Shown in pieces: positions 19,102 through 64,000 of a stretch of 64,000 nt of DNA. The stretch spans positions 1 to 64,000 of the forward strand of contig QZKW01000072.1 of the NCBI GenBank assembly GCA_003599885.1, in the 5' to 3' direction. Below the pieces are notes generated by a model. The model worked only from the letters and a program-made list of their open reading frames with translations. It made no database searches and was not told the DNA's origin. A program made the translations under genes and the position numbers. Each line of letters opens with the position of its first letter. The stretch's first letter is position 1. The stretch comes from Desulfobacteraceae bacterium. GTDB lineage: Bacteria; Desulfobacterota; Desulfobacteria; Desulfobacterales; Desulfosalsimonadaceae.

Positions 19102-22100
19102 TTACCACTCGTTTAAGGAATTAATAAAGCAATTCTTATCGTTCCCTCCCCTGGCCGACTGGGCGGCGGTGACAGTTTCCGATACGGGGCCGATGGGACC
19201 ATGCATATTATCGGATCCAACGCTGTCGATCTCAACTTCTTCCAGCATGTAATAATATTTTTTTCCGCTTGAAAAATCCACGCCGCAATCCGTGAAGGTG
19301 TATTTTGCGCCCATGGTTTCGATCATTGACTTGGATGCAATCAACCCATTATTGACGCGGACGAATCCGGTCAACGGATTATCAGAGCGCCATACATGGA
19401 ATCCGGCGGCGTTGATTTCCGTGGCGGTTTCCCAGTCGACGTCGACACAGCCGTCCGAAGCCATAGCCGTAAAGGACGCCAGGGTGATGGCCAGCGGCGC
19501 GGTCTTTCCTCCCAGGATGTATTCCGGGTTTTGCTTAGGGAGACCATTCTGGGTGTCGCCGCCAAAGGTCAAGGTATTGGCCACCGTATTCAATGTGACG
19601 GAAGCGCCGGGGTCTCCCCACGTCCGGTCGCAGAATTCATCGCGCCGGGCCAGGCCCAACACGGAATCGTCGGTCGGAGCCATTGGATTGGCGTTATAAT
19701 TATAAACCACGTCATATATCGGACCGCCCACGGAATTGGGGTCTGTGACAAACGCCCCGAAATACCGGTAATAGTCCACGGATGACCAGTTGGCCGGCGG
19801 TGGAACCGCAGTAACCGGAGGTGTCAGACCGTTGGGGCTTGTGTAAGGGGTATCTGAAATATCCGGCCCATACACCGGCGCTTCGTCCAGCCGATACACA
19901 TGAATGCCGGAACCGGCGGCCCAGGCCCCGCCGTTTGCCGTGGCCCGGAAGGGGTCGCCGGTGGGGTTCAAGGTGACGGTGGATGCGCCTGCGCCGTAAT
20001 TATAGGCGCTGTAATCGCCGATGGGGGCGGAGGAGCAGATTCGCGCATCGATAACAGCCGCGACAAAAGCAGTCATAGTCCCGTCATTAGTGTTGCTGGA
20101 ATAATCCGGGCAGATTGCGCTGATCGTCTCCTCGTCAAACCGCCAGTATCCGCCCAGATCATTGCTGCCTGCGCCGTCCCAGTTCGGATGGCCGTTGGTG
20201 ACGGCGGGCGGGTTGTTGTAAATGAGCTTTTTGCACATCCACTCATCAATGGTCGCCACATCCAGAGCCACATCTTTCCATACCCGGACTTCATCGATCC
20301 GGCCCAAGAAGTAATTTCCGGCTCCGATGCTGCCGATGGTCAGATTTCCGGTTGGTGTTCCTGATATTTGAGCAACCGGGTTGGTGTTATCCAGCACACC
20401 ATTGACATACATGCGCATATTGACGCCGTCCCAGGTGGCGGCGATATGATACCAGGCGGCGCGGTTTAATACTGTTGTGCTTGTAACTGAATTTGATACG
20501 CCGCCGTTATATAATGTTAAAACAATTTGATTGCCCGTTACCCCGTCTGTCGTGAGCCGGTACCCGTCTGTCGTATTTCCCTTGCTGATGATGCCTGCAG
20601 TGAGAACCAGCGGGGCGGGCGCTGCGGGGAGATACACCCAGGCTTCCAACGTTCCGTCAGTCGTCAGATCAAGGGAAGCATCGTCGATTACATCCACATA
20701 CCCGCTCGCACCGTCAAATTCAATAGCATTCCTCGGGTCCACGTTCTTGCCCAGAATAAATTCCGTGCCGGCAAGTCCGGTTTTAGAGAGAGTGTTGGAC
20801 AAAATGGGCGCAATGTTATCAGGCACTGCGTTCAAATCCATCCAAGGCGCACACCCCTGGTGCCGGTACATCAAATCCAGGTTATTTTCATCTCCGATAC
20901 CTGCCAGTCCATAAGTATATTTTACATAGTAGGTCGGTTTTTCAATGAGGGGATTGGCTATGGTATCCACATCTCCCGTAACAAACACACCCCAATAACC
21001 TCTTGAACCGAAGAGTTTTGTTCCATTCGGCCCGTTCCCGGGTTCCGGCGCATCGTCCACCCGATACATCTGAATGCCGGATTTTAACGCTGGAGTCCAT
21101 GAACCAAGAGCAGGCTCATACGCGGCGAAGAATGTATCGCTTCCGGCAGTCATGGTTACCGTGTAAGAGGCGGCATAATCATGAACGCTGTCATCTCCCA
21201 GCGGCGCTTCCGAGCAGACATGAAACGCATCGAAAAGGGTTCCATTCGCGCCTCCAGCCGCATCCGTCACAGCGGAGCCGCCATATTCATTGTACTGAAG
21301 GTAGGAAACCAGATTGCCGGGCAATGCCCCAAGGTCCAGAGTCCGGCACATGTCATTCCGGATATCCCCGATTGCCCTTGCCGTATTCCATACGCGGAAC
21401 TCCTCCACATTCCCGTAATACTGACCGGGTGTAGCGGAGACATGCTGTATGCCGATGGTCAGAGGAACCGCATTGGCCGCGGCAACGCTGGCAGGACCCG
21501 TGGCTTCAAGTATGCCGTTAATGTAAATATTCATTCCCCCGGCATCCCATGTGCAGGCAACATGATACCACTTTCCGGCCGTCAATGCATGGCCGGTGGC
21601 CACCAGCACGGTATTGCCCACCCGGAACCCGATATTCTGGGCAGATCCGGATGGCGCCGCGGTGTCAAAAACAGATCCTCCCGCAAGACCAAACCCATAC
21701 GCCGCACCGGACACATTGTCGCCCTTCATGACGATGCCCGCATCCGAATTCTCCGGATTGCAGGACGTGGCCTGAATCCAGGCCTCAATCGTGCCCGAAA
21801 CGGTCAAATCTAAAATACCGCTGTCCGGGACACTGACGTAATGTTCATTCGGGTCCGTGCAGGAAGTATTGCACGCGGTGCAGAATGTATTTTCGAACCG
21901 GATCGCCCGGCGCGCGGGTTTGTATGTTAAAAGGACACTATCAGTGGCCATATAATCATTCAATACTCCGGCAACTCCGTCACTTCCGTTCCGCTCGCCG
22001 GTCGCAGTTCCCGACGCACCCGGCGTGAGGGGCGTGAGAGGCCCTGGGCCATCGGGATCGGTTCCGTTTGTACCCGGCACACTGGTCCAGCGCACATCAG

Positions 22101-25100
22101 CAGTGTATGTCAGGTCGGATTCCGTTTCCGCAGGCGCTGCTTCTACGGTAAATACAATGGTCAGCGCGCCGTTCACCGGGAACGTCCCCACCGTAATATC
22201 CAGACCCGCCGCTGTGCTGCTGTCGGTAATGTTTCCGCCGCCCGCAACGCCACCGGCGGGTATGATATTCGCAACCACCAGATTGCTGTAACCCGCAGGC
22301 AAAAGATCCGTTATATTCACATCATAGCCCGGTCCCACATTGGCTCCGCCGGGGTTGGTAATAACCAAAGTAAATGTAACGGTCCCGCCTTCCGCCGGTA
22401 TTTCGGCCAGATCAGCGCTCAGGGTCATCTGAATATCCGGCTCGGCCACAGTGACCGTGACAGGAAGGGAGGCCGGCAACAAGGTCTGCCCGGCACCCAG
22501 GGCGTCCTGATAGGTCAGGGTCGCGCTGTTGGTGTTGGGGGTTCCCGCCTGGTTGAACACGATATTGGCCACCACCACATCGTACCGCAGCACATATCCT
22601 TCAGCGCCCGCATCCGAATCGGAGTTGATCACATCCCCCAGGAACAGACTGAGATCCTGGCCGCTCTGGGTCAGGGTCACCGGCACAAAAAGGGTGGAAG
22701 CCGCCGCATTGACATTGCCAGGATTGGTCGCGGCCGTGATGCCGGTGGTGAACACCCTCGCAAGCCCGGCGTTTCCGACATATGTCAATCCGGCCGGCAG
22801 CGTATCCTTCAGCGTTGCCTGCCGCAACAATCCTTCCGGCATGGTCACGCTGACTTCATAGGTGAGCACTTCACCGATAAGCACCTGCGGAACAGAAACA
22901 CCGGGCTCTGAGGTGTCGGCTTCCACAAGACCCTTGAGCAGATCGGTAGGTGCGCCTACGGATGAAGCGCCGACGCGAATCGGCGTCAGCGTTGGATCAG
23001 GATTGACACCATCTCCAGGAACGCCGTTGTCGTCGCTGAGAACGCCGCCGGGAAATTCCGTGGAGGTCACATTGGCCTGATTGGAAAGTATCAGACCGTC
23101 AACCACCGCTGCGTTAGGCGGGTTGCTGTCAATCAGCACCCGAAAGCGGACCGTGATCACATTCCCCGGATCCACCGTTCCAATATTGACGATAACCGGA
23201 TCTTCATCCAGCACCGCTCCCTGGCTGGTATAAACCGAGCCGACCACAATGGTGGTATTTACCGGAATGGGATCATCGTCAATCCGCACATCATGGAGCG
23301 GGGATGAACCCGAATTGGTGATGAAAATCTGGTATTCCAGAGTATCGCCCGGAGAGGCGTACCCGTCTCCCCCCCCATCCACGGCCACGGTATAGCGTTT
23401 CTGCACATCCAGATCCGCTGTTCCCGGGATGCCGTCCACAGCGGTGATGGAAGTGGGCTGATAACCGTCAGACGGATCGCCGTTGCCGTCGCTGGGTATC
23501 GGCGTGGTTTCATTGCTGTCCGCCGAACCCTGATTGGTGAAGGTATAGATATTGACGCTGCCTGGCAGCGGCGCGTTAATGGTCACATCAAACACAGCCG
23601 CAGCCCAGGATCCTGCTGTGAGACTTCCTGCGGGCCAGGTCAAATTCTGACCGGCGATGGCGGCATTGGGCGCGACTTCCTGGGTCACGACCAGTGTGCC
23701 GCCCACATAAGTCAGCCCGGCCGGTATCGTGTCTGTGATATTGATGCCGGTCAGCGTCGTGCTGCCCAGATTGTCAACAATCAGGGTGTAGGTCAGCCGG
23801 TCCCCGGGAGTGACGCTCCCGCTGGAGTCGTTGTCGGCTACCCATGCCACGCGTTTTTCCAGATAGAGCGGATTCAAAAGAGACGTCCGGGGGCCCACGA
23901 TAATCTCTGTAGGATCAAGGCCATTGCCGTCTATGTCGTCGTCATCCGTGGGCCGGGGAACCGTCTGGTCCGAATCCACCAGACCCTGATTGGAAATGAT
24001 GGTGCCTTCCGGTGTGCCCGCGTTCACAGTGACCCGGAAGGTGATGGTGACCGTATCCGCCGGATCCATGGTTCCCACATCGACACTCAAAGGATTGCCG
24101 CTATCATCCGTCGATCCTTGGGTTGTTGTCAGTGAAGCCGCCACATAGGTCGTATTGACGGGGATGGCGTCCGTATACACCACGTTCGTGGCCTGGGATA
24201 CGCCGGCATTGCGCAGCACAATGGTATATTCCAGGATGTCGAGGGGGTCAAGCTGGCCAAGCGGGAGAACTGAGTCCACCGCTATGGCCACGGTCTTGGG
24301 TGCCCGGATAAAGGCCGGCGTGGCCGGAGTGACCGACGCATTGCCATCTGTCGCATAGTTATTGAGTACATTTCCGGGCCCGTCATCACCGGTGCGCCCG
24401 TTGTCCGCCGCCCCGGTGGCTCCGGAAAGTCCGGACCATACGAGGTCGATGGTATTGGTCAATGGAACGCCGACTGCGGCGGAATTATCCACGGTCGCAG
24501 AATAATAGAAAGTGATGTCATGTGCCAGAAGCGTCAAGCTGGAAATACGGAATTGAAGATTCTGACCGGCAACAGTCACATCCAGCGCCGGTAGAGTTGC
24601 GGACCCGGGTACATAGGTCATGCCAACCGGCAGCACATCATCCAGCACCAGGTCCCAGGCGTCTTCCGTACTGCCCGCGTCATGCATGACGGTAATTTCA
24701 TAGGTCACCACACTGCCCAGGGCCTGAACGACGGGGACAGCGGTTTTGCTCACCACCAGTTCCGGCTCGGTAAGGGTCAACGGACGGCCCTGGATTCCGG
24801 GTGCGATAGGATCATAATCATAGGTCACTGTGGAAGGTCCCGCTCCATAATTTACAAAGACCGTGCCACTCTCACCGTTTCTCAGGATATCGTTGTTCTG
24901 GTAGGCAATGTTGTTGTCGACCCTGGCCGTAATGGCAATGTCAAAATAATCATCCAAAATATCGCCGTTTGCGGGATTGAATACCGTGCCCAGACCAAAC
25001 CCGACGTCTTGGTCTGCGCCAAGACGGGTATTGTATAAGGCATTGCCGAACGTCATGCCCATATGGCCAACGCTGATGACATGACTGACATAGGTCAGTC

Positions 25101-28100
25101 CGGCGGGCAGTGTGTCATTAACCGAAACGCTCGGAGTTGTGCCCTGAATGACGGACACCCGTATGGTATAGATCACTTCCTCACCGATAGTGGCAGTGGT
25201 CTTGTCCGCCTGTTTGTCGATGGCGATATTGGAACGAATGGTGATCCCGTTGCTGGCTGATTGCGCATAGTCGTTCAATGCGCCGCCAATGCCGTCCGCG
25301 CCGTCACGCACCACATCCGTGCCGCTGGCCCCCGTCTGCTGACTGGCGTAATCGGCCGTTACCACGTTGTTCAGGACCTGGGCCGGCGCCACCGTATTCA
25401 TGACAGTCGCATCGAACTGAATGGTCAGTTCAGAACCGGCAGGAATTCGAATATTGGTTAGGGTAAGCGTATCATCGGCGTTCACGGTGGTGGAAATAGC
25501 AACATCTCCGGAATCCACCGGATTGCCGCCGCTGTCAAGGATCGGCGAACCGGTTGTTGCCAGTGAAAAAAGAACAATATTGTTGATGCCGTTGGGAACC
25601 TGGTCCCGGATATCGGTCTGCCAGGCGGTGGTGGTTCCGGTGTTCTCAACCGTGAATTCCCATCGCACCGTCGTGCCCGCATCCGGATTCACATGCCCGG
25701 ATATGGGCGTTTTGTTCATGACGAGAACAGGTTCTCCCACAGTAACGGTTCTTGACACGTGCGGCGTCGACAATGTGCCGCCGGGAGGAATATTCGGGTT
25801 ATTGTATGTGGCGAACGCGTCATTCGTCAGGTTGACGCCTTCCTGATTGGCGGCGACATTTTCAACCTGGGCATAGTAATCAATGGTGATGGGGCCTGCG
25901 GCGGTGGCTGTGACGGTGCCCAGCGTCACTGTGACCAATCCGCCCGCTTCATTGACCGTATTGCTGGATGTCGTGATGCCGGCAGGCAGCGTGATGACCG
26001 GGACGTAGGCCCCGGCATTTAAAAACGCCAGATCCCCTGGAAGCTGATCGGTAATCACCATGCCGGTGGAGGTACCGACCGGAATATCCATGGTGAGGCG
26101 GTAATGCACGATATCGCCAATGGCATACCGCGCCTGAAGCCCGATCACATCCTTGGCCAGTGTGGGGGTGGAGGTGGTGAGGGGCGCATTGGTGGATGCC
26201 GTTAAATTATTCACGCCGCCCGATCCGTTGCGCTCATTCGCGTCCACGCCCGGCAGGGTGGTGGTTTGCGCGGTTGCAAGGTTGCTCAATGTGGAGGAGA
26301 ATGGCGTGGCCGGATCGATTTGGGCCTGATAGGTGACTTGCACGGATTCTAATTGATCAAGCCGGTCAATGGTGCCGGACAGGGTCCATCCGACCGTGTT
26401 GTCGCCTGAGAAACTGGCATTCATGGTTGCACCGGTACCCCCGGGAAGAAGAACAATGCTTCCGGCATTTTTAAGCTGGAGCGGCAGCACGTCCTGAAAC
26501 GTCCAGTCAAAACCATCGGCGTTGACATTCGCGTTGGTATTGGTGATGGTGAGGGTGTAGGTCACGGTGGCCCCTGCAGCAGGTGCGGCGGGCAGAACGG
26601 ACTTGCCAATAGTCACTATCGGCAGACGGACAGTGACGGTTCGGACAGCAGATGAAATATTCGCCTGAGTATCAACCCCGGATGGCGGATAATAATTGTA
26701 ATAAAGCCTCGCCAGATCCTGGAGCGCGCGGGTGTCAATATTGGTTGCCACATTATCCACCCGCTGAGTGATCGCAAGGGTATAGGTGTCGCCGCCGGCA
26801 GATCCGCCGGAATTGTCGACATTACCCAGGGGCAGGGAAAACATTCTTGCCGCCGGACAGTTGGGCAATGATGCTATTGGACATGTCTGTATCTGGGGCA
26901 AAACATCGACGGGGACACCTGCGCCGGCAGTATTGATACTATTCGGATTGTTGACTGAACTTAAGGAGACGTTGCTGCGGGCCAGCGTCGCTGCCACCAG
27001 CGTCACACCCGCCCAACTGTTGGCGTTGTTCATGATATCCGAAAGAATGACGTTCCGGGTGAGGGCTTTGGGCAGGGTAAATGTCAGGCGGTAAGTGAAC
27101 GTTTCCCCGATGGCGACGTTGGCGTTTGCTGTATGGGCCTGGGAGGTGTCGGCGCTGACAACTGTGGATTTTGCAATTGCCGGACCCGCAATGGTGACCG
27201 CCGTCATGGCGCCGGTATTGGAGGTGTCCCGATCCTCGGGAACCGCATTCTCCTGACTGTCGCCGGTAACCGCCGCGGTGTTGGTGTAGGTTGAACTGCT
27301 CACCGCAGAATTGCTGACATTGGCGGTAAAGGTAAAGGTGACGCTGCCGCCTGCTGCCAGGCTGGTTCCGTCATTCTGGGTGTAAGTGACGGTGGGATTG
27401 GCATAATTATAGGTATAGCCTGCCGGGGTACTGAGTGCCGAAACTGTGGAAAGATCCAGCAGAGCGTTGCTTGCCGCCCCTTCATTTAATACATCTGTCA
27501 CCACCACATCAAATGCCGGGGCGGTACCGGTGTTTTGCACGGTCAGGGAAAAAGTGAGCAGGTCCCCCGATCGAAATGGCGGCGCGGGATTGGTGATGGC
27601 CTTGGTAATGGTCAGGCGGGGTTCGCCGAACTGGAGGGTGCGGGTGGAGGTGATGGCGCCACCGGGGTTGCCGGTGAAGGTCAGGGCTGCAGTATTGGTT
27701 TTATTTGCGAGGGGAATCCCGGAACCGGAAGTTGCGTCCATCACACGAACATTATACGTCAGGACAAAAGAATTGTTGGCGGTTCCATTGGTGCTGGTGA
27801 CGGTAACATTGCCGAAACTAAATACAGGGACTTGCGCGGTGCCCCCGACTCCAGGAGGATTGGGCAAGGCGGGGCTGAATCCGGAACCCTGGCTGGCCAC
27901 GGCAACCGTGCCGGCCACATATTGGAATCCTGCCGGCAGGATGTCTGTAATCGTTACGCCCGGCGAATCGCCTTCAGGAATGGTGACATCCAGCCGGTAG
28001 GTGATGACATCGCCGGGGACCACATTGGGGGTTGCCGGTCCCGGAACGATAGCGGTGACACTCTTGGTCAAAATGGCCGGAGGTGCAATTGTGACGGTGG

Positions 28101-31002
28101 CGGTATCAAAGATTTCTCCGAATTTAGGTCTGCCGGGCCACGCGGCCCAGTCCATATAGGCGGTGTTGGTGAGCACACTGCGGGGGGTCACGGTGTCGGC
28201 CAAGGTACAGGTGTATACAATTGAAATAATGGCGTCTTCAGGAACAGGATCATCAAGAATAAGATCCGTTGGAACCCCTGTAAAAAGATTGCCGGTATAA
28301 GTGGCCGCTGCAGGCAAACCCGGCCCCGCTCCGTCCGGATCCACGGTAACCGAACTGATGGCAAAGGATCCGACGACGAACCCGGCCACGGCCGGATCGC
28401 GGAAAGTGACGTCATATGCCGGAGCGTCGCCGGTGTTTTCAGAGGTGATGGTAAAGGTGATCACATCTCCGGCATCGGAATTGGTAATATTGCCGCCGGC
28501 GATGACACTGGCGGGGTTTGTGCTGCCGGTGACCGATTTGCTGATAGTGAGAACGGGTTCATCCAGGACGATCTGTTTGATGGCAGAGGTGGCGGTTGTG
28601 GTTCCCGCTGTGGAGCTTTCCGATGCCGCAGCCTGGTTGGTCAGAAGCAGGCCCGTGGCATAGGGGTCTGTAGTGACCGTCACGGTAAATAAAACATCAA
28701 TGGTGAGCGGACCGTCCGGCGGCTGCAGCGGAGGGGCGGTGTAGAAATCGCCATACGTAAAGACCACGGTGTTTTGGGAGGCGCTGGTGGTGAGCACGGG
28801 ATAAAGGTCAGGACCGGGCGTATCCGGCAGCGTCAGGGTTTGGGCCACAAGATAGGCCCGTAGCGTATCCGAAGGGCCGAATTTTGCGAACCCTGCCGCA
28901 GGCGCTGCCGCGCTGGCCACGCCGTCAACAAATGTAACAACTTCTGTCGCGTCAAAAACCGGCAGGGGCAGGTAGTCGGTAAGGAAAAGATCCTCAAAAT
29001 TGTGAGTGGGAAGCGCATAAGTGATACGGTACGTGACTTCATCCCCCGGCTCAATCGTTGCGCCGGGCAGCGGGGCCACGCCATTGATGGCGTAAAGTTC
29101 CTTGCTCAGCAAGCCGACGGCGATCTGGACCTGGGCGGCGGCGGCATCCTGCTCGGTAAAGCCATTGGGGGTCAGGTTTGAAACGTTCAACACGTTGCCC
29201 GTGGCCGTGGCCGCGTTGTTCAGAATATCCCCCTGGTCCACCGCAGAATTACCCGGATAGAGAGGGGGGGTATTAAAAGTGTCGCTGAAGTATTCCTGAA
29301 TCTCGGTGTAATAAATAATGGTGACGCTGGCGGGCCGCAGCGGTGAAGGAGCCCCGCAGCCGCCCGCAAAGGTGCAGCCGCAGTTCGCGGGAGGTCCGCC
29401 GGTGCCGCCTGCAGGCACACATCCGCCCAGCATCTTGCCATCGGTGGAGGCGCGCCGGGTTTTCAGTTCTTCCGACACCCGGAACTGAAAATCCGTGGTG
29501 CCGTCCGTTGCGTCAGCCGGATTGCCGTCGCCGGTGTCCGTGTCGCCAAAGGCGCTGTAATGGGGCGTTACGGTATAATTAGCCGCAGTCATGGCGGCTG
29601 AAGCAAGGTCTCCGCGATGCTCCACCAGAATAAGCTTGGGCGTATAGATTCCACCCGTAAGCCAACGGTGACCATCATTGATGGTGTCGTCAATAACAAA
29701 ATCTTCAAACGCGAAATAATCGGATACGCCGATGGTCAGGGTATGCTCCAGGATCGCGCCGGGAATCACCGCCCCGCCGCCGACTACGCTCACGCCTTTA
29801 TTCAGAATCATGGACATATCCGTCCGGGTGATGCCGCCGACGGTGGTGTCGATGGGAAGGCTGCCGTCCCGTGGATCGGTGGGGGTGGTCCATGTTCCCT
29901 GAACCCTCACGCTGTTGGGGTCGCTGGTAGCATCATCAGCAGGCGCACGGAAAATGACCGGGTTGCCGGCATAATCCGCTTCCGGAACATAAAAATCCAC
30001 TGTGATAACGTGTGGTCCGCCCGTTAAGGAAGCATAAGTCACGCTCAGGGTGTTATTTGTAGGCGGAACATTGTCCACAATCGCGCTTACCGTCGGCTGA
30101 AGCGTTATGGTGCCTAAGGCTGCGGTGGCCCCCAGATAAACCATGTCTGACGGCAGGGTGTCGGTAACCGTGATACCGTCAACGGTCTCTCCGGGCGCGA
30201 TATTGATGGTGATGGTGTATTGACGGTGAAAATTATCGCCGGTCAGCCCGCCCTCGGCGGTCTTGTCAACTGTGACCACCTGGGGGATGACGGCCTGGGA
30301 GGGCGCCCAGGTGGTGCTGTTGGCGCTGGCCTGGCTCAGAATCGTTGGATCCGGAAGGGTGGGATTGTTCAAGGCGTCCGCACCATACTGAAATCCGGCC
30401 CGGGCGCGAAAGGTCAACGGCGCACCCACATCCGCCATATCACTGACGTTGGCGGTGAAAACCACGGGGGCCGGGGGTTGATCCGTTACAAAGGAGCCAA
30501 ATGGCAGGGCCGCCACCACCAGGGTGTCGCCGGCATTACCGGTGACTGTGAGCGGAACACCCAGATTGTTCACAGCCAGAGGATGAATCACGGTTCCGAC
30601 AATCAATGGCCCGGTGCCGTCGGGATCCGGAAAGGTCAACGTATAAGTGGTCACCGGAACGCCCATGTAAGTGGCAGTGCCGAAACTGATGCCGTCGACA
30701 GGTTGCACTGGCGTCGTTGCCCCCGGATCACCGTCCGCACCCCGGCGGGGGAACACCAGGTCGATAAACGGTCCAAATCCGGTATCGCCCGCCGGGCCCG
30801 TATTGTCGAAGGTCGCTGTCACTGTGAAAGAATTGCCGATAAACGGCGTTGTGGTAGAAGCTGAAAGTGTGACTGCTGGAACCGGAGCAGCCAGCGCAGG
30901 GGATGCAAAAAGAACGGCAAGAAACCAAAAGCAAAGGGCCGAAATGCAGATGAACGCGATTTTCCTTCTACCTGACACATTCAAATTAGATGGTGTGATC
31001 AT
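19102..31002 (-). CDS. Giant secreted DUF11-repeat / LamG surface protein (3966 aa)
   Basis: A secreted, probably extracellular structural or adhesive protein. A signal peptide covers about residues 1-39 (hydrophobic core CISALCFWFLAVLFA, ending ALA-A). From about 40 to 3030 there are roughly 17 Ig-like DUF11 'conserved repeat domain' units of 150-180 residues, recognised by recurring DTLPAGLTYVG-like segments. Two LamG/concanavalin-like domains follow (about 3033-3260 and 3425-3650), each trailed by a similar domain of ~160-180 residues that I do not recognise. A fibronectin-III-like domain (about 3837-3940) and a short tail ending CFINSLNEW close the protein. I see no LPxTG, PEP-CTERM, autotransporter barrel or RTX repeats. 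Codon use looks like that of its neighbours. The start has GGA 9 nt upstream. Confidence 0.85.
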   Translation of the reverse strand: MITPSNLNVSGRRKIAFICISALCFWFLAVLFASPALAAPVPAVTLSASTTTPFIGNSFTVTATFDNTGPAGDTGFGPFIDLVFPRRGADGDPGATTPVQPVDGISFGTATYMGVPVTTYTLTFPDPDGTGPLIVGTVIHPLAVNNLGVPLTVTGNAGDTLVVAALPFGSFVTDQPPAPVVFTANVSDMADVGAPLTFRARAGFQYGADALNNPTLPDPTILSQASANSTTWAPSQAVIPQVVTVDKTAEGGLTGDNFHRQYTITINIAPGETVDGITVTDTLPSDMVYLGATAALGTITLQPTVSAIVDNVPPTNNTLSVTYASLTGGPHVITVDFYVPEADYAGNPVIFRAPADDATSDPNSVRVQGTWTTPTDPRDGSLPIDTTVGGITRTDMSMILNKGVSVVGGGAVIPGAILEHTLTIGVSDYFAFEDFVIDDTINDGHRWLTGGIYTPKLILVEHRGDLASAAMTAANYTVTPHYSAFGDTDTGDGNPADATDGTTDFQFRVSEELKTRRASTDGKMLGGCVPAGGTGGPPANCGCTFAGGCGAPSPLRPASVTIIYYTEIQEYFSDTFNTPPLYPGNSAVDQGDILNNAATATGNVLNVSNLTPNGFTEQDAAAAQVQIAVGLLSKELYAINGVAPLPGATIEPGDEVTYRITYALPTHNFEDLFLTDYLPLPVFDATEVVTFVDGVASAAAPAAGFAKFGPSDTLRAYLVAQTLTLPDTPGPDLYPVLTTSASQNTVVFTYGDFYTAPPLQPPDGPLTIDVLFTVTVTTDPYATGLLLTNQAAASESSTAGTTTATSAIKQIVLDEPVLTISKSVTGSTNPASVIAGGNITNSDAGDVITFTITSENTGDAPAYDVTFRDPAVAGFVVGSFAISSVTVDPDGAGPGLPAAATYTGNLFTGVPTDLILDDPVPEDAIISIVYTCTLADTVTPRSVLTNTAYMDWAAWPGRPKFGEIFDTATVTIAPPAILTKSVTAIVPGPATPNVVPGDVITYRLDVTIPEGDSPGVTITDILPAGFQYVAGTVAVASQGSGFSPALPNPPGVGGTAQVPVFSFGNVTVTSTNGTANNSFVLTYNVRVMDATSGSGIPLANKTNTAALTFTGNPGGAITSTRTLQFGEPRLTITKAITNPAPPFRSGDLLTFSLTVQNTGTAPAFDVVVTDVLNEGAASNALLDLSTVSALSTPAGYTYNYANPTVTYTQNDGTSLAAGGSVTFTFTANVSNSAVSSSTYTNTAAVTGDSQENAVPEDRDTSNTGAMTAVTIAGPAIAKSTVVSADTSQAHTANANVAIGETFTYRLTFTLPKALTRNVILSDIMNNANSWAGVTLVAATLARSNVSLSSVNNPNSINTAGAGVPVDVLPQIQTCPIASLPNCPAARMFSLPLGNVDNSGGSAGGDTYTLAITQRVDNVATNIDTRALQDLARLYYNYYPPSGVDTQANISSAVRTVTVRLPIVTIGKSVLPAAPAAGATVTYTLTITNTNANVNADGFDWTFQDVLPLQLKNAGSIVLLPGGTGATMNASFSGDNTVGWTLSGTIDRLDQLESVQVTYQAQIDPATPFSSTLSNLATAQTTTLPGVDANERNGSGGVNNLTASTNAPLTTSTPTLAKDVIGLQARYAIGDIVHYRLTMDIPVGTSTGMVITDQLPGDLAFLNAGAYVPVITLPAGITTSSNTVNEAGGLVTVTLGTVTATAAGPITIDYYAQVENVAANQEGVNLTNDAFATYNNPNIPPGGTLSTPHVSRTVTVGEPVLVMNKTPISGHVNPDAGTTVRWEFTVENTGTTTAWQTDIRDQVPNGINNIVLFSLATTGSPILDSGGNPVDSGDVAISTTVNADDTLTLTNIRIPAGSELTIQFDATVMNTVAPAQVLNNVVTADYASQQTGASGTDVVRDGADGIGGALNDYAQSASNGITIRSNIAIDKQADKTTATIGEEVIYTIRVSVIQGTTPSVSVNDTLPAGLTYVSHVISVGHMGMTFGNALYNTRLGADQDVGFGLGTVFNPANGDILDDYFDIAITARVDNNIAYQNNDILRNGESGTVFVNYGAGPSTVTYDYDPIAPGIQGRPLTLTEPELVVSKTAVPVVQALGSVVTYEITVMHDAGSTEDAWDLVLDDVLPVGMTYVPGSATLPALDVTVAGQNLQFRISSLTLLAHDITFYYSATVDNSAAVGVPLTNTIDLVWSGLSGATGAADNGRTGDDGPGNVLNNYATDGNASVTPATPAFIRAPKTVAIAVDSVLPLGQLDPLDILEYTIVLRNAGVSQATNVVYTDAIPVNTTYVAASLTTTQGSTDDSGNPLSVDVGTMDPADTVTITFRVTVNAGTPEGTIISNQGLVDSDQTVPRPTDDDDIDGNGLDPTEIIVGPRTSLLNPLYLEKRVAWVADNDSSGSVTPGDRLTYTLIVDNLGSTTLTGINITDTIPAGLTYVGGTLVVTQEVAPNAAIAGQNLTWPAGSLTAGSWAAAVFDVTINAPLPGSVNIYTFTNQGSADSNETTPIPSDGNGDPSDGYQPTSITAVDGIPGTADLDVQKRYTVAVDGGGDGYASPGDTLEYQIFITNSGSSPLHDVRIDDDPIPVNTTIVVGSVYTSQGAVLDEDPVIVNIGTVDPGNVITVRFRVLIDSNPPNAAVVDGLILSNQANVTSTEFPGGVLSDDNGVPGDGVNPDPTLTPIRVGASSVGAPTDLLKGLVEADTSEPGVSVPQVLIGEVLTYEVSVTMPEGLLRQATLKDTLPAGLTYVGNAGLARVFTTGITAATNPGNVNAAASTLFVPVTLTQSGQDLSLFLGDVINSDSDAGAEGYVLRYDVVVANIVFNQAGTPNTNSATLTYQDALGAGQTLLPASLPVTVTVAEPDIQMTLSADLAEIPAEGGTVTFTLVITNPGGANVGPGYDVNITDLLPAGYSNLVVANIIPAGGVAGGGNITDSSTAAGLDITVGTFPVNGALTIVFTVEAAPAETESDLTYTADVRWTSVPGTNGTDPDGPGPLTPLTPGASGTATGERNGSDGVAGVLNDYMATDSVLLTYKPARRAIRFENTFCTACNTSCTDPNEHYVSVPDSGILDLTVSGTIEAWIQATSCNPENSDAGIVMKGDNVSGAAYGFGLAGGSVFDTAAPSGSAQNIGFRVGNTVLVATGHALTAGKWYHVACTWDAGGMNIYINGILEATGPASVAAANAVPLTIGIQHVSATPGQYYGNVEEFRVWNTARAIGDIRNDMCRTLDLGALPGNLVSYLQYNEYGGSAVTDAAGGANGTLFDAFHVCSEAPLGDDSVHDYAASYTVTMTAGSDTFFAAYEPALGSWTPALKSGIQMYRVDDAPEPGNGPNGTKLFGSRGYWGVFVTGDVDTIANPLIEKPTYYVKYTYGLAGIGDENNLDLMYRHQGCAPWMDLNAVPDNIAPILSNTLSKTGLAGTEFILGKNVDPRNAIEFDGASGYVDVIDDASLDLTTDGTLEAWVYLPAAPAPLVLTAGIISKGNTTDGYRLTTDGVTGNQIVLTLYNGGVSNSVTSTTVLNRAAWYHIAATWDGVNMRMYVNGVLDNTNPVAQISGTPTGNLTIGSIGAGNYFLGRIDEVRVWKDVALDVATIDEWMCKKLIYNNPPAVTNGHPNWDGAGSNDLGGYWRFDEETISAICPDYSSNTNDGTMTAFVAAVIDARICSSAPIGDYSAYNYGAGASTVTLNPTGDPFRATANGGAWAAGSGIHVYRLDEAPVYGPDISDTPYTSPNGLTPPVTAVPPPANWSSVDYYRYFGAFVTDPNSVGGPIYDVVYNYNANPMAPTDDSVLGLARRDEFCDRTWGDPGASVTLNTVANTLTFGGDTQNGLPKQNPEYILGGKTAPLAITLASFTAMASDGCVDVDWETATEINAAGFHVWRSDNPLTGFVRVNNGLIASKSMIETMGAKYTFTDCGVDFSSGKKYYYMLEEVEIDSVGSDNMHGPIGPVSETVTAAQSARGGNDKNCFINSLNEW

Positions 31003-61102: not shown

Positions 61103-64000
61103 ATGAATTCATTATTTCAACTCGATTTATTTTTTCCTTATGCCATTCCGCCGTTTCTTTCCTCTCTTGTATGTTTTTTTCTGGCATCACTCACCATTCA
61201 GACTGGAAAAACTAAGGCTGAAAACAGGCTTTTTACGGTTTATTGCCTGCTGCAGGCATTTTTAAACCTGGATATCACACTGGCAACAATCTTCAGTTCA
61301 AGCACGGTTGCATTATCCATCAGCCGGTTCAATCAAATGTTTTACGTCTTCATCATTCCGGTTGGCGTCCATTTTATTCATAAAATGGCCGGCATTTATG
61401 ATCGGAATAAACTCGTCCGGAGTTTATACATTTTTAGCCTGATTTTGGTCCCCTTTACACAGACCGAATATTACTTTTATGACATAAAAAAGTATTTCTT
61501 TGGGTTTGGCGCTCAGGGTGGTCCGGTTTTTCAAATTTTCGGATGCATCGCTTTGATAGCAACGATTTACATCACGCACATCCTCTGGATGATGTCAAAA
61601 CGCGCTACAGATCCCCGCCAAAAGTTAAAGGCCCAGTTTATTCTGTATGGTTTTTGCGCCAATGCAGTTCTGACCGTCGGCGACATATTACCAATACTTG
61701 GTGTCGAGGTTTATCCACTGGGCAACTTCGGCTTTATCCCCATGTTGCTGATGGCTTATGGCCTTCTTCAGCACGAGTTTATCGAGGTAACGAAAAAAGG
61801 AATATCCAAAGACTTCATCCTAAAACTCCTGATCCTGTTCGTATGGCTTCCCCTGATCTCAAGTATTATTTTATGGTTTTTCACCAAACAACATTTATTT
61901 TATCCGAACCTTTATGATCGTATTGTTCCTTATGCGATTCCGCCTGTTGTGTCTTTTCTTGCCTGTTTTATTATCGCCACCATTTGTTTCTCCCAGAGGG
62001 CATTGAGGCCGACAACGATTCTGTTCGGCCTGATTTCAACGCTCTGGGGTTTTCTTAATCTTGACATCACATTAAACATGCTGGTTTTCGATAAAAATCT
62101 TGGACTATACCTGAACCGGATCGACCATTCTTTTTTAGTTTTTCAATTGGGGCTCTCCGCCCATTTTGTCTATTCAGTGATTGGGCGGCGGCAACGATGG
62201 ACTTTTGTATATCCTATGTATGCAATAGGTTTCTTTCTGATGCCCTTCACTCATACCGACTGTTATTTTCAAGGGAACAAAGAATTTTTCTGGGGTTTTT
62301 ACTCTCAAAAAAACTTTCTTTTCGATGTATTCAGTTTTTTCTCATCTGTTTCCGTTGCATGGGGAACGATATTGCTCTTTCAGGCAACTTGGGGGGAGAA
62401 AGACATCGATCTGAAAAAAAAATATCACTATGTGCTGAGCGGCGTCATGATAACCGGTTTTTTGAATTTGCTCAGCATTCCCCCATTGTATGGCATTGAA
62501 TTATACCCCATTGGCAACTTTACATTTATTCCAATCCTCATCATGGGATATGGAATATTCCGTCATGACATTATGCGCCTGAACAGGTATTCCATAAAGC
62601 GAATCATAGGATCTATTGTTCATGTCGTGATTTTTCTGGGCCTGGCTTCCCTGTCGGCGGTGGTCTACTGGGCGATCGGCGATTTTGAATTCAATTACAT
62701 CATCAACCGGATGATTCCATACGGCATCCCTCCTTTGTTGAGCGTCATCAGCTTCACTTTTTTTATGTTTCTTTCTTTAAAATTGGGCCAGAACCGAAAT
62801 GAGGCCCTGCTTTTCAGCCTGTTCAGCCTACTTTATGTCTTTTTAAATACGGATATTTTCCTCAACAGCATTATTGTTGATGAGGCGGTCGGCCTTCAGC
62901 TCAACCGGTGGGACCATGCCTTTTTTGTTTTTTGTCCTGCTTTAACTCTTCATTTCGTCTTTCTGGTTTTGCGGAGACAAAACAAGTGGTGGATTGTCTG
63001 GTTTTTTTATGGCCTTGCGGGTATTTTTTCTCTCTTCACTCAGACCAATTTGTATTTCCAAGGGATGCATCACTACTCCTGGGGTTTTTTCGCCAAAAAC
63101 GGTCCTGTTTTTGACGCATTCGGCATTTACTGTTTACTCCTTACAATCTACATGAGTTACCTGCTTTTTGATGGGTATCGTCGGACGGACAACCTGTTTC
63201 AAAAACGCCGTATTTTACTCATAGGATTGGGGTTCGGGATAGCTGAAGTCCTGGTCCTTTTTGATCTGCCGCCAATCTATGGGTATGACATTTACCCACC
63301 CGGAAATTTTGCATTTTTACCTATGCTTCTGGTCGCATTCGGCTTATTTAAAGATAATATCAAGGAATCATTAAAAATATTAAAAACGTGGCTCTTATGG
63401 GCCGGTTTGTTTGGCATTGTTCTGGGCATCTCCGCAATCTATAAAAAGATATACCCGACGGATAAGTCACTCACATTCTATTGGGCAGGATTAATCGCGG
63501 TGATTTTCTCCTATAAATTCATCCATCGCGCCTGGGATATGACCCTGTCGTTATTCATCGGTTCTGAAAAAGACAGGTTAGACACATTGTTCCTTTCACT
63601 GACAAATGACCTTTCCAGATCGCGCACCATCTATTCCATTTTTCAGGCCATTATTGACAAAATTTTTCCGGAATTATTGAGTACCCACTGTAAAATTCTT
63701 GTCAGATCAACTCAGGATTCTTTGCAAACCACCCCGGTCAGCTTTACCGGGTGGGAAGCGTGGAACCCCCGCAATATATTGTTTTTTGATAAGGGTCGGC
63801 CTTTAAGTCTGGATAACGCTATTCACCTGGAAGCTTCTCACCCATTGTTATTAATGTTTCAAAAATACCGACTGCCCGCTACGATTGAAAATGTTGGGGA
63901 GTGGATGATGGAAAAAGACTTATTCCTGCCCCCCCAAGATCATCTCCTTCAAGCAGAGCTGATTCTTCCGGTTTACCAAGAAGACACCCTGATCTGCCTG
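61103..64000 (+). CDS. Membrane sensor with three tandem 7TM-type modules and a GAF-like domain (partial)
   Basis: A 966-codon reading frame, open at the right edge; the RBS is GAGGG. Residues ~1-265, ~270-530 and ~535-765 are three copies of one module. Each begins with a PYAIPP/PYGIPP motif (residues 12, 276 and 539; spacing 264 and 263), followed by NLDITL/NTDIFL, LNR(I/W)DH(S/A)F in copies 2 and 3 (diverged to SRFNQMF in copy 1), FTxTxxYF, and an ending xYPxGNFxFxPML/IL...G(L/I)(L/F) like the histidine-kinase 7TM (PF16927) consensus. Two further TM helices follow, then a signalling helix (about 815-830) and a GAF-like domain from about 830, cut at the window edge. The output domain (kinase, phosphatase or cyclase) is not visible. 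It looks more A+T-rich than its neighbour. Confidence 0.75.
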   Translation, partial: MNSLFQLDLFFPYAIPPFLSSLVCFFLASLTIQTGKTKAENRLFTVYCLLQAFLNLDITLATIFSSSTVALSISRFNQMFYVFIIPVGVHFIHKMAGIYDRNKLVRSLYIFSLILVPFTQTEYYFYDIKKYFFGFGAQGGPVFQIFGCIALIATIYITHILWMMSKRATDPRQKLKAQFILYGFCANAVLTVGDILPILGVEVYPLGNFGFIPMLLMAYGLLQHEFIEVTKKGISKDFILKLLILFVWLPLISSIILWFFTKQHLFYPNLYDRIVPYAIPPVVSFLACFIIATICFSQRALRPTTILFGLISTLWGFLNLDITLNMLVFDKNLGLYLNRIDHSFLVFQLGLSAHFVYSVIGRRQRWTFVYPMYAIGFFLMPFTHTDCYFQGNKEFFWGFYSQKNFLFDVFSFFSSVSVAWGTILLFQATWGEKDIDLKKKYHYVLSGVMITGFLNLLSIPPLYGIELYPIGNFTFIPILIMGYGIFRHDIMRLNRYSIKRIIGSIVHVVIFLGLASLSAVVYWAIGDFEFNYIINRMIPYGIPPLLSVISFTFFMFLSLKLGQNRNEALLFSLFSLLYVFLNTDIFLNSIIVDEAVGLQLNRWDHAFFVFCPALTLHFVFLVLRRQNKWWIVWFFYGLAGIFSLFTQTNLYFQGMHHYSWGFFAKNGPVFDAFGIYCLLLTIYMSYLLFDGYRRTDNLFQKRRILLIGLGFGIAEVLVLFDLPPIYGYDIYPPGNFAFLPMLLVAFGLFKDNIKESLKILKTWLLWAGLFGIVLGISAIYKKIYPTDKSLTFYWAGLIAVIFSYKFIHRAWDMTLSLFIGSEKDRLDTLFLSLTNDLSRSRTIYSIFQAIIDKIFPELLSTHCKILVRSTQDSLQTTPVSFTGWEAWNPRNILFFDKGRPLSLDNAIHLEASHPLLLMFQKYRLPATIENVGEWMMEKDLFLPPQDHLLQAELILPVYQEDTLICL

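Follow-up and report, generated by a model that had tools for sequence, protein, structure and literature searches.

The window analysed here is the whole stretch of 64,000 nucleotides formed by positions 1-64000 of a contig of 70398 bases (C18, QZKW01000072.1) from a Desulfobacteraceae bacterium (assembly GCA_003599885.1, our genome G000; G, L and f numbers are our own labels for genomes, loci and families). At its right end lies the gene of a hybrid histidine kinase, which begins at 61103 and runs beyond the window (contig 61103-66682, 1859 aa). Residues 1-800 of this kinase are three tandem copies of one membrane module, with a period of 264 then 263 residues, in a reading frame open across all three modules (Table 1). 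An earlier note, made from the letters of the window, had proposed three tandem copies of about 263 residues, and the complete translation bears this out. Four landmarks, PY[AG]IPP (residues 12, 276 and 539), N[LT]DI[TF]L (55, 319 and 582), FTxTxxYF (118, 382 and 645) and YPxGNFxFxP (204, 468 and 731), are all spaced by 264 and 263 residues. The LNRxDH landmark is, as had also been noted, clear in copies 2 and 3 (LNRIDH at 337, LNRWDH at 600) and diverged in copy 1 (ISRFNQ at 73). In pairwise blastp module 1 is 31% identical to module 2, and modules 1 and 2 are 35% and 34% identical to module 3 respectively; the alignments span 252, 243 and 221 residues (E 1.2e-49, 5.3e-47 and 1.8e-51, for two-sequence comparisons with the low-complexity filter and composition correction off). 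By these values the similarity of the modules is far beyond chance.

Table 1. Features of the kinase gene within the window (window coordinates).
Feature	Position	Strand	Remark
Hybrid histidine kinase gene, 5' part	61103..64000	+	966/1859 residues; continues to C18 position 66682
Module 1, residues 1-264	61103..61894	+	7TM module + return helix
55-nt direct repeat, module 1 copy	61131..61185	+	PYAIPP segment
Return helix (TM8) of module 1, residues 239-260	61817..61882	+	ends set by us
Module 2, residues 265-528	61895..62686	+	7TM module + return helix; single-module model pLDDT 84.9
55-nt direct repeat, module 2 copy	61923..61977	+	76% identical; spacing 792 nt
Return helix (TM8) of module 2, residues 500-524	62600..62674	+	ends set by us
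Module 3, residues 529-800	62687..63502	+	38.6 bits with PF16927 (cut-off 28.6, genome search)
Two extra helices (TM8, TM9) of module 3, residues 760-807	63380..63523	+	lead to the cytoplasmic part
Region from about residue 830	63590..64000	+	no Pfam domain; conserved in homologues; continues past the window

By our count each repeat consists of seven helices plus one return helix, which gives 25 helices in all; the figure of the earlier note, about 21 transmembrane (TM) helices plus two, is thus too low, the counted unit being of eight helices (7 + return). The count comes from structure models and hydropathy, with helix ends set by us; helices 7 and 8 are fused in the module 2 model and in module 3 of the full model and were split by hydropathy. 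Lysine and arginine amount to 0.30 per loop residue on the predicted inner side (35/116) vs 0.07 on the outer side (13/185). From this charge pattern, the N-terminus is predicted outside and every seven-helix bundle takes the same orientation. The eighth helix therefore allows odd-numbered bundles to repeat in line, with all copies facing the same way.

The model of module 2, built from 17 sequences, reaches a predicted local distance difference test score (pLDDT) of 84.9. With this model Foldseek found no solved structure at E≤0.001; the best E was 3.6e-3 and the TM-score by query 0.32-0.58 in the 50 rows shown. The 50 rows shown by VIA have Z 13.6-15.7 over 205-233 residues at 4-14% identity, and by title 49 of them are seven-transmembrane (7TM) receptors of the G protein-coupled receptor (GPCR) kind and one is a rhodopsin, with Z barely above the helical-bundle background. 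The resemblance of the module 2 model to a GPCR-type 7TM bundle is thus suggestive only. In the model, helices 4 and 5 are also linked by a beta hairpin (module residues 125-139), at the site that the second extracellular loop takes in class A GPCRs.

We file the module as HisKA_7TM-type (PF16927, gathering cut-off 28.6 bits), mostly beyond the reach of the PF16927 model. Module 3 passed the cut-off in the genome search over model positions 6-218; a filtered hmmscan of the whole window protein and of the separate modules gave no PF16927 match. In the module tree, modules 1 and 2 fall with the first and second copies of proteins in which PF16927 marks three stretches. Nine kinase-form tandem proteins were scanned whole, and four of them exceed the cut-off, each with three stretches (L045, L046, L047 and L076, with 52.2, 50.2, 59.2 and 61.6 bits; each stretch passes E 0.5 or 0.1, the cut-off applying to the whole protein). 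For the cyclase forms, L052 (19.9 bits) and L084 (24.3 bits) lie below the cut-off, and L053, L075, L082, L083, L086, L087, L088 and L054-L058 give no PF16927 match. The single-copy kinases L089 and L090 score 31.5 and 27.1 bits, and L092 has no match. The seven helices stand N-terminal to a signalling output, as read from the module 2 model, the low-confidence full model, the charge pattern and the kinase part.

In HisKA_7TM as a whole tandem copies appear to be rare, yet in some parts of this phylum they seem established. Among relatives 35/98 genomes match, with three matches over most of the model in six frames of five genomes (G000, G003, G004, G015 and, twice, G018); in the same search G079:C327 has two matches and one partial, and G015:C115, G052:C9 and G079:C205 have two each. 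In the order at least 151 of 389 genomes match (up to six candidates were scored per genome, so that the counts are lower bounds); G102 adds one more three-copy frame, as do, on closer inspection, G116 and the two G079 proteins, with their weak first copies. Across the phylum our profile matches 66/297 genomes, with three matches in one frame in G000 and a partial third one in G566, G589, G611 and G631. PF16927, an insensitive model that shows just one of the three modules of the window protein, matches 82/297 genomes and finds two copies in one frame only in G425, where the tandem pair precedes GAF-HisKA-HATPase (L072:1732-4587, +); one of the six genomes of the order of G425 matches at all. 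In family f105, 15 of the 24 genomes searched are positive, and nine of these list one frame with three matches, of which the third is often partial. A frame of G679 that reaches the contig end is listed with three pieces. Thus the statement of the earlier note that this kind of sensor is normally single holds as far as one copy is the norm for the HisKA_7TM kind, but a one-off triplication is not supported: frames with three copies are present in further genera and families, and in nine of the 15 positive f105 genomes.

In a tree of 50 modules (for the A2 set, hits <200 residues were left out and 32 loci were chosen by us) the copies group by position, with tandem proteins from families f1, f18, f45 and f68. 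The copy-1, copy-2 and copy-3 clades are supported by 100/100, 99/99 and 99/99 respectively. The first copies of the two-copy proteins G015b and G052a fall in the copy-2 clade; their second copies fall in the copy-3 clade, together with the f1 single-copy proteins. Forcing the three copies of the window protein into one clade costs 682 log-likelihood units (p 2.4e-45 in the approximately unbiased (AU) test, a comparison named after the tree was seen). By these trees the modules are old, distinct paralogues; the triplication appears old, the test rejecting an origin of its own within the window protein. The clades of copy 2 (96/96) and copy 3 (98/100) hold in a tree of 72 modules, in which cyclase-form first copies and G541s lie on long branches and copy 3 splits into kinase and cyclase branches (95/89, 99/96). 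The two copies of G425 are each other's sisters (100/100, 50-module tree) and therefore stem from an independent duplication, so that tandem duplication of this sensor happened more than once.

One protein groups in a mixed manner in the 50-module tree: copy 3 of G018a (L045) with the second copy of G015b (L049; 100/99), and its copy 1 with the window and G003 (99/97). This may hint that single modules are exchanged between genes. The two pieces of G018a were searched separately; we rejected a split gene in this case, as its 869-codon frame ends at unknown bases (X) and the kinase frame follows, which we read as an assembly gap.

The three-module design appears old, some relatives having kept three modules while others were whittled down to one. 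In the two-copy protein G052a (copies 2 and 3) the N-terminal helix reaches 17.5 bits on a model of the copy-1 return helix, the best of 2200 shuffles reaching 8.7 bits and the best of 776 single-module windows 10.7 bits; by this score the protein keeps the return helix of a lost copy 1. The single-copy diguanylate cyclases of the window's family likewise appear to keep the return helix of a lost copy 2: a profile of the start helices of 15 f1 single-copy proteins matches the copy-2 return helix at E 2.8e-5 (probability 48%), vs E 0.34 and 0.42 for the other two return helices. This claim relies on the 15-sequence profile because the test on single sequences is weak. In the latter, which left out extensions <23 residues (4 single-copy proteins), six of eight f1 single-copy extensions scored on the copy-2 helix model are equalled by just 0-4 of their own 200 shuffles; G000s (9/200 shuffles) and G018s (63/200) do not stand out, and the best real score, 11.5 bits, equals the best among all 2200 shuffles.

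The first module of the two-copy protein G015b (L049:2-2266, -) resembles copy 1 over its first 16-20 residues (mean identity 0.61, vs 0.43 to copy 2) and copy 2 beyond the PYAIPP motif. In the window gene the only direct repeat ≥20 bases found is the 55-nt one at PYAIPP, whose two copies lie exactly one repeat unit apart. A simple reading of this short stretch is that G015b would have lost one unit by recombination at the PYAIPP motif. Further erosion is visible in G516, where one degenerate module stands ahead of copy 3 and matches copy 2 in its last part, and in G420, where merely a short stretch is left ahead of copy 3. Clade models served to assign the first modules of cyclase forms: those of L082-L085 score 39-69 bits on the copy-1 model and ≤42 on the others, G670 only 10 bits on the copy-1 model, and G516 24.5 vs 41.7 bits for the copy-2 model (last part).

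Constraint differs between the copies. The ratio of nonsynonymous to synonymous substitution rates between the window gene and that of G003, a genome of the same genus, (one pair) is 0.24, 0.20 and 0.16 for modules 1, 2 and 3, by which each module of the kinase form is under purifying selection. Percent identities to the window protein for copies 1/2/3 are 62/64/45 (G004), 74/60/52 (G018a), 56/58/41 (G018b), 51/56/38 (G015a) and 47/45/40 (G102), and 76/86/80 (G003) and 33/36/35 (G116), module 1 being the least conserved in these last two; copies 1 and 2 are thus both more conserved than copy 3 in 5/7 kinase-form pairs. Distant cyclase-form pairs have copy 3 conserved far better than the other two: 26/36/56 for G611-G631, 18/24/54 for G611-G670, 16/23/47 for G611-G079a and 19/28/36 for G079a-G079b; the close pairs G611-G566 and G611-G589 have 78/82/86 and 84/95/94 (some module borders in the cyclase-form pairs were set by hand). 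R75, G134, G200 and Y204-P-x-G are invariant or nearly so in all three kinase-form copies, and are placed on the predicted outer side. Among the positions that differ from copy to copy are 84-86, position 51, with Q in copy 1 and W in copy 2, and position 133, where copy 1 has F and the other two have W. The groups compared position by position leave out the G079 modules and the first module of G015b. Such copy-specific conservation fits specialised copies, and the comparison as a whole suggests that the copies do different jobs, with a shift in jobs where the output is a cyclase.

The sequence beyond the window reveals the output. Pfam places GAF at 1045-1194, HisKA at 1216-1281 and HATPase at 1328-1439, followed by two REC and Hpt. 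The putative relay residues are His1226 (HisKA), Asp1514 in DLETP, Asp1655 in DIEMP and His1802 in GHGLKG; with the HisKA histidine, HATPase, REC aspartates and Hpt histidine all present, the protein is predicted to be a hybrid histidine kinase with a phosphorelay. The stretch at the window edge had been called GAF-like. Pfam finds no domain in residues 808-1044, and the stretch aligns with residues 856-1041 of L076 (45% over 186) and residues 31-160 of the L077 kinase piece (55% over 130). Because both alignments lie upstream of the Pfam GAF of these homologues, the GAF-like label is not supported and we rejected it.

The next gene downstream encodes a REC-GGDEF protein with a GGEEF signature and RxxD five residues before it, i.e. 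with the REC and GG[DE]EF of a diguanylate cyclase response regulator. With the first ATG as its start, 38 bases of it lie within the kinase gene; an inner ATG, which matches the start of the G003 gene as printed, would give a short gap instead. A REC-GGDEF gene lies directly downstream in G000, G003, G004 and G018b, i.e. for 4/8 kinase genes with a visible 3' side (G015a and G015b are truncated, G015b by the contig end). In other relatives GGDEF is in the same chain, namely in both G079 proteins, in six f105 proteins (L082, L083, L084, L086, L087 and L088; L085 is cut and was left out of the scan) and in six complete f1 single-copy frames. These six, in which Pfam confirms GGDEF, are all the complete ones of 15 f1 single-copy frames; three more carry the signature, and the remaining six run off the locus, with no GGDEF signature in the part present. 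The REC-GGDEF neighbours and the in-chain GGDEF relatives together indicate, therefore, that the output is probably cyclic di-GMP (c-di-GMP) in most, not all.

Two other features were met on the way. Upstream of the G004 kinase (L039:3455-5551, +) lie frames of 315 and 383 codons in the same phase with one stop between them; the second, which opens with an H-box, gives a 39% match to the window kinase, so that this is apparently an interrupted second hybrid kinase. The window itself contains an open frame of 3966 codons (19102-31002, -) for a giant protein.

We think it rather probable that the window gene encodes a membrane receptor kinase in which three modules of the HisKA_7TM kind follow one another and face the same way; in it modules 1 and 2 sense or stabilise, module 3 transmits, and the signal is relayed to the REC-GGDEF protein. 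The return helix would bring the chain back out, so that every bundle shows the same face to the periplasm. Modules 1 and 2 would sense one or two cues, or stabilise a pocket or interface shared between bundles. From module 3, which adjoins the output, a conformational change would reach the cytoplasmic part and the kinase by way of its two extra helices. The phosphoryl group would then travel from His1226 to a receiver aspartate (1514 or 1655), to His1802 of Hpt and to the neighbouring REC-GGDEF protein, whose phosphorylation would change c-di-GMP. The sequence itself displays the architecture, the orientation by charge, the position-specific clades, the loss of copies, the relay residues and the REC-GGDEF neighbour; the direction of the relay, its partner and the division of labour we infer. 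It is possible, if distinctly doubtful, that one chain amounts to an obligate hetero-trimer of GPCR-like receptors, its three specialised, same-facing bundles being joined by return helices and computing a single output from up to three cues; it would have arisen once, before several families of the phylum split, and have been dismantled stepwise where direct cyclase output replaced the phosphorelay.

Several observations weigh against the serial receptor kinase. The full 846-residue model is poor (mean pLDDT 56, predicted template modelling score 0.41); because it is too uncertain to show how the bundles pack, the case for three equivalent ones draws on the sequence and the model of one module. 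Modules 1 and 2 of the window protein, taken alone, have no PF16927 match in hmmscan and none at E≤1e-5 in the genome search. The PF16927 scan finds nothing in five of the nine kinase-form proteins (that of the window and L044, L050, L073 and L074, i.e. the G003, G052a, G102 and G116 proteins), and only 10/48 modules match at E≤0.01, 38/48 having no match. The branch that unites all tandem copies against the other single copies is weak (91/59), so that descent of all tandem copies from one triplication is not firmly supported, and in the 72-module tree the fast cyclase-form copies 1 stand on long branches apart from the kinase copies 1. The neighbourhoods vary as well: the G018a kinase has a lone REC as neighbour, the neighbouring REC gene of the G102 kinase is truncated by the contig end, and the two-copy G052a kinase has upstream, overlapping it, a gene that Pfam reads as REC-sigma54 activator-Fis HTH (L043:2760-4202, +). 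For G116, blastp with the window REC-GGDEF matched only the kinase itself. By eye, L074:2-853 of G116, from the family of the two-copy L043 kinase, is also sigma54-activator-like. In the family of L043 and L074 the output may have been swapped from REC-GGDEF.

The same data were weighed under other explanations. Modules 1 and 2 could be a membrane scaffold, either an intramolecular oligomer or a dock for partners, with module 3 alone signalling. The stronger divergence of modules 1 and 2 in distant cyclase-form pairs, the single-copy cyclase relatives that keep only a copy-3-kind module, and the fixed period, which would suit a packed array, all lean this way. Yet the two modules are the better conserved ones in most kinase-form pairs and keep R75, G134, G200 and YPxG on the predicted outer side, and we regard a pure scaffold as unlikely, while still giving it some weight. 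That the copies arose by recent tandem duplication and have no roles of their own seems hardly credible: the copies are only 31-35% identical, and the position-specific clades and the AU test, though named after the tree was seen, contradict it, despite the survival of the 55-nt repeat, 76% identical, one unit apart between modules 1 and 2. On the copy-specific clades and the p value for the window copies as one clade, this candidate was rejected.

We also considered that the modules are retinal proteins, i.e. light sensors of the rhodopsin type. A Gloeobacter rhodopsin is among the 50 VIA rows (Z 13.8), and the only PDB sequence match of our profile at E≤1 is 8h87, named HcKCR2 (E 0.32), which we take to be a channelrhodopsin. 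In microbial rhodopsins, however, retinal is anchored to a lysine of helix 7, and the helix-7 core of the three copies (209-226, 473-490 and 736-749, helix ends set by us) contains no lysine. The identity as microbial rhodopsin was rejected on this ground, and light sensing through retinal appears extremely improbable. The serial receptor kinase remains the reading that we favour. The three-, two- and one-module proteins form a natural deletion series, with the left-behind return helix as a marker. With it one can ask what number of receptor bundles is needed in a signalling chain and what the contribution of each is, and the integration of signals by 7TM sensors in series can be tested directly.

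Among known systems, the window protein resembles the single-copy GGDEF proteins of its own family, among them a paralogue in the same genome (G000:C4, 879 aa). Their module falls in the copy-3 clade and, by domain content in the six complete frames scanned, they would synthesise c-di-GMP; they differ in having one copy after the relic of the module 2 return helix, and GGDEF in the chain instead of a phosphorelay. Hybrid kinases of the BarA/TorS/ArcB type have a similar kinase, receiver and Hpt part, but the window kinase stays far below the NCBIfam cut-offs (418 vs 890 bits for BarA), and kinases of this type are not known to have 7TM arrays. The LytS-type kinases belong to a different 7TM family, with one copy. 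One of them, BtsS, resembles the window protein as a 7TM sensor kinase that binds a small molecule, being a pyruvate receptor (PMC10653868). HisKA_7TM is listed as a sensor domain of archaeal kinases in passages of PMC5847659 and PMC6944256, which do not mention tandem copies; tandem HisKA_7TM modules occur in no title or opening abstract in our literature search, outside which most subscription papers and the whole of bioRxiv fall. The likeness to HisKA_7TM lies in module 3 and four orthologues, which exceed the profile cut-off, and in the N-terminal place ahead of GAF and kinase; the difference is that HisKA_7TM normally comes in one copy, whereas the window protein has three, together with return helices.

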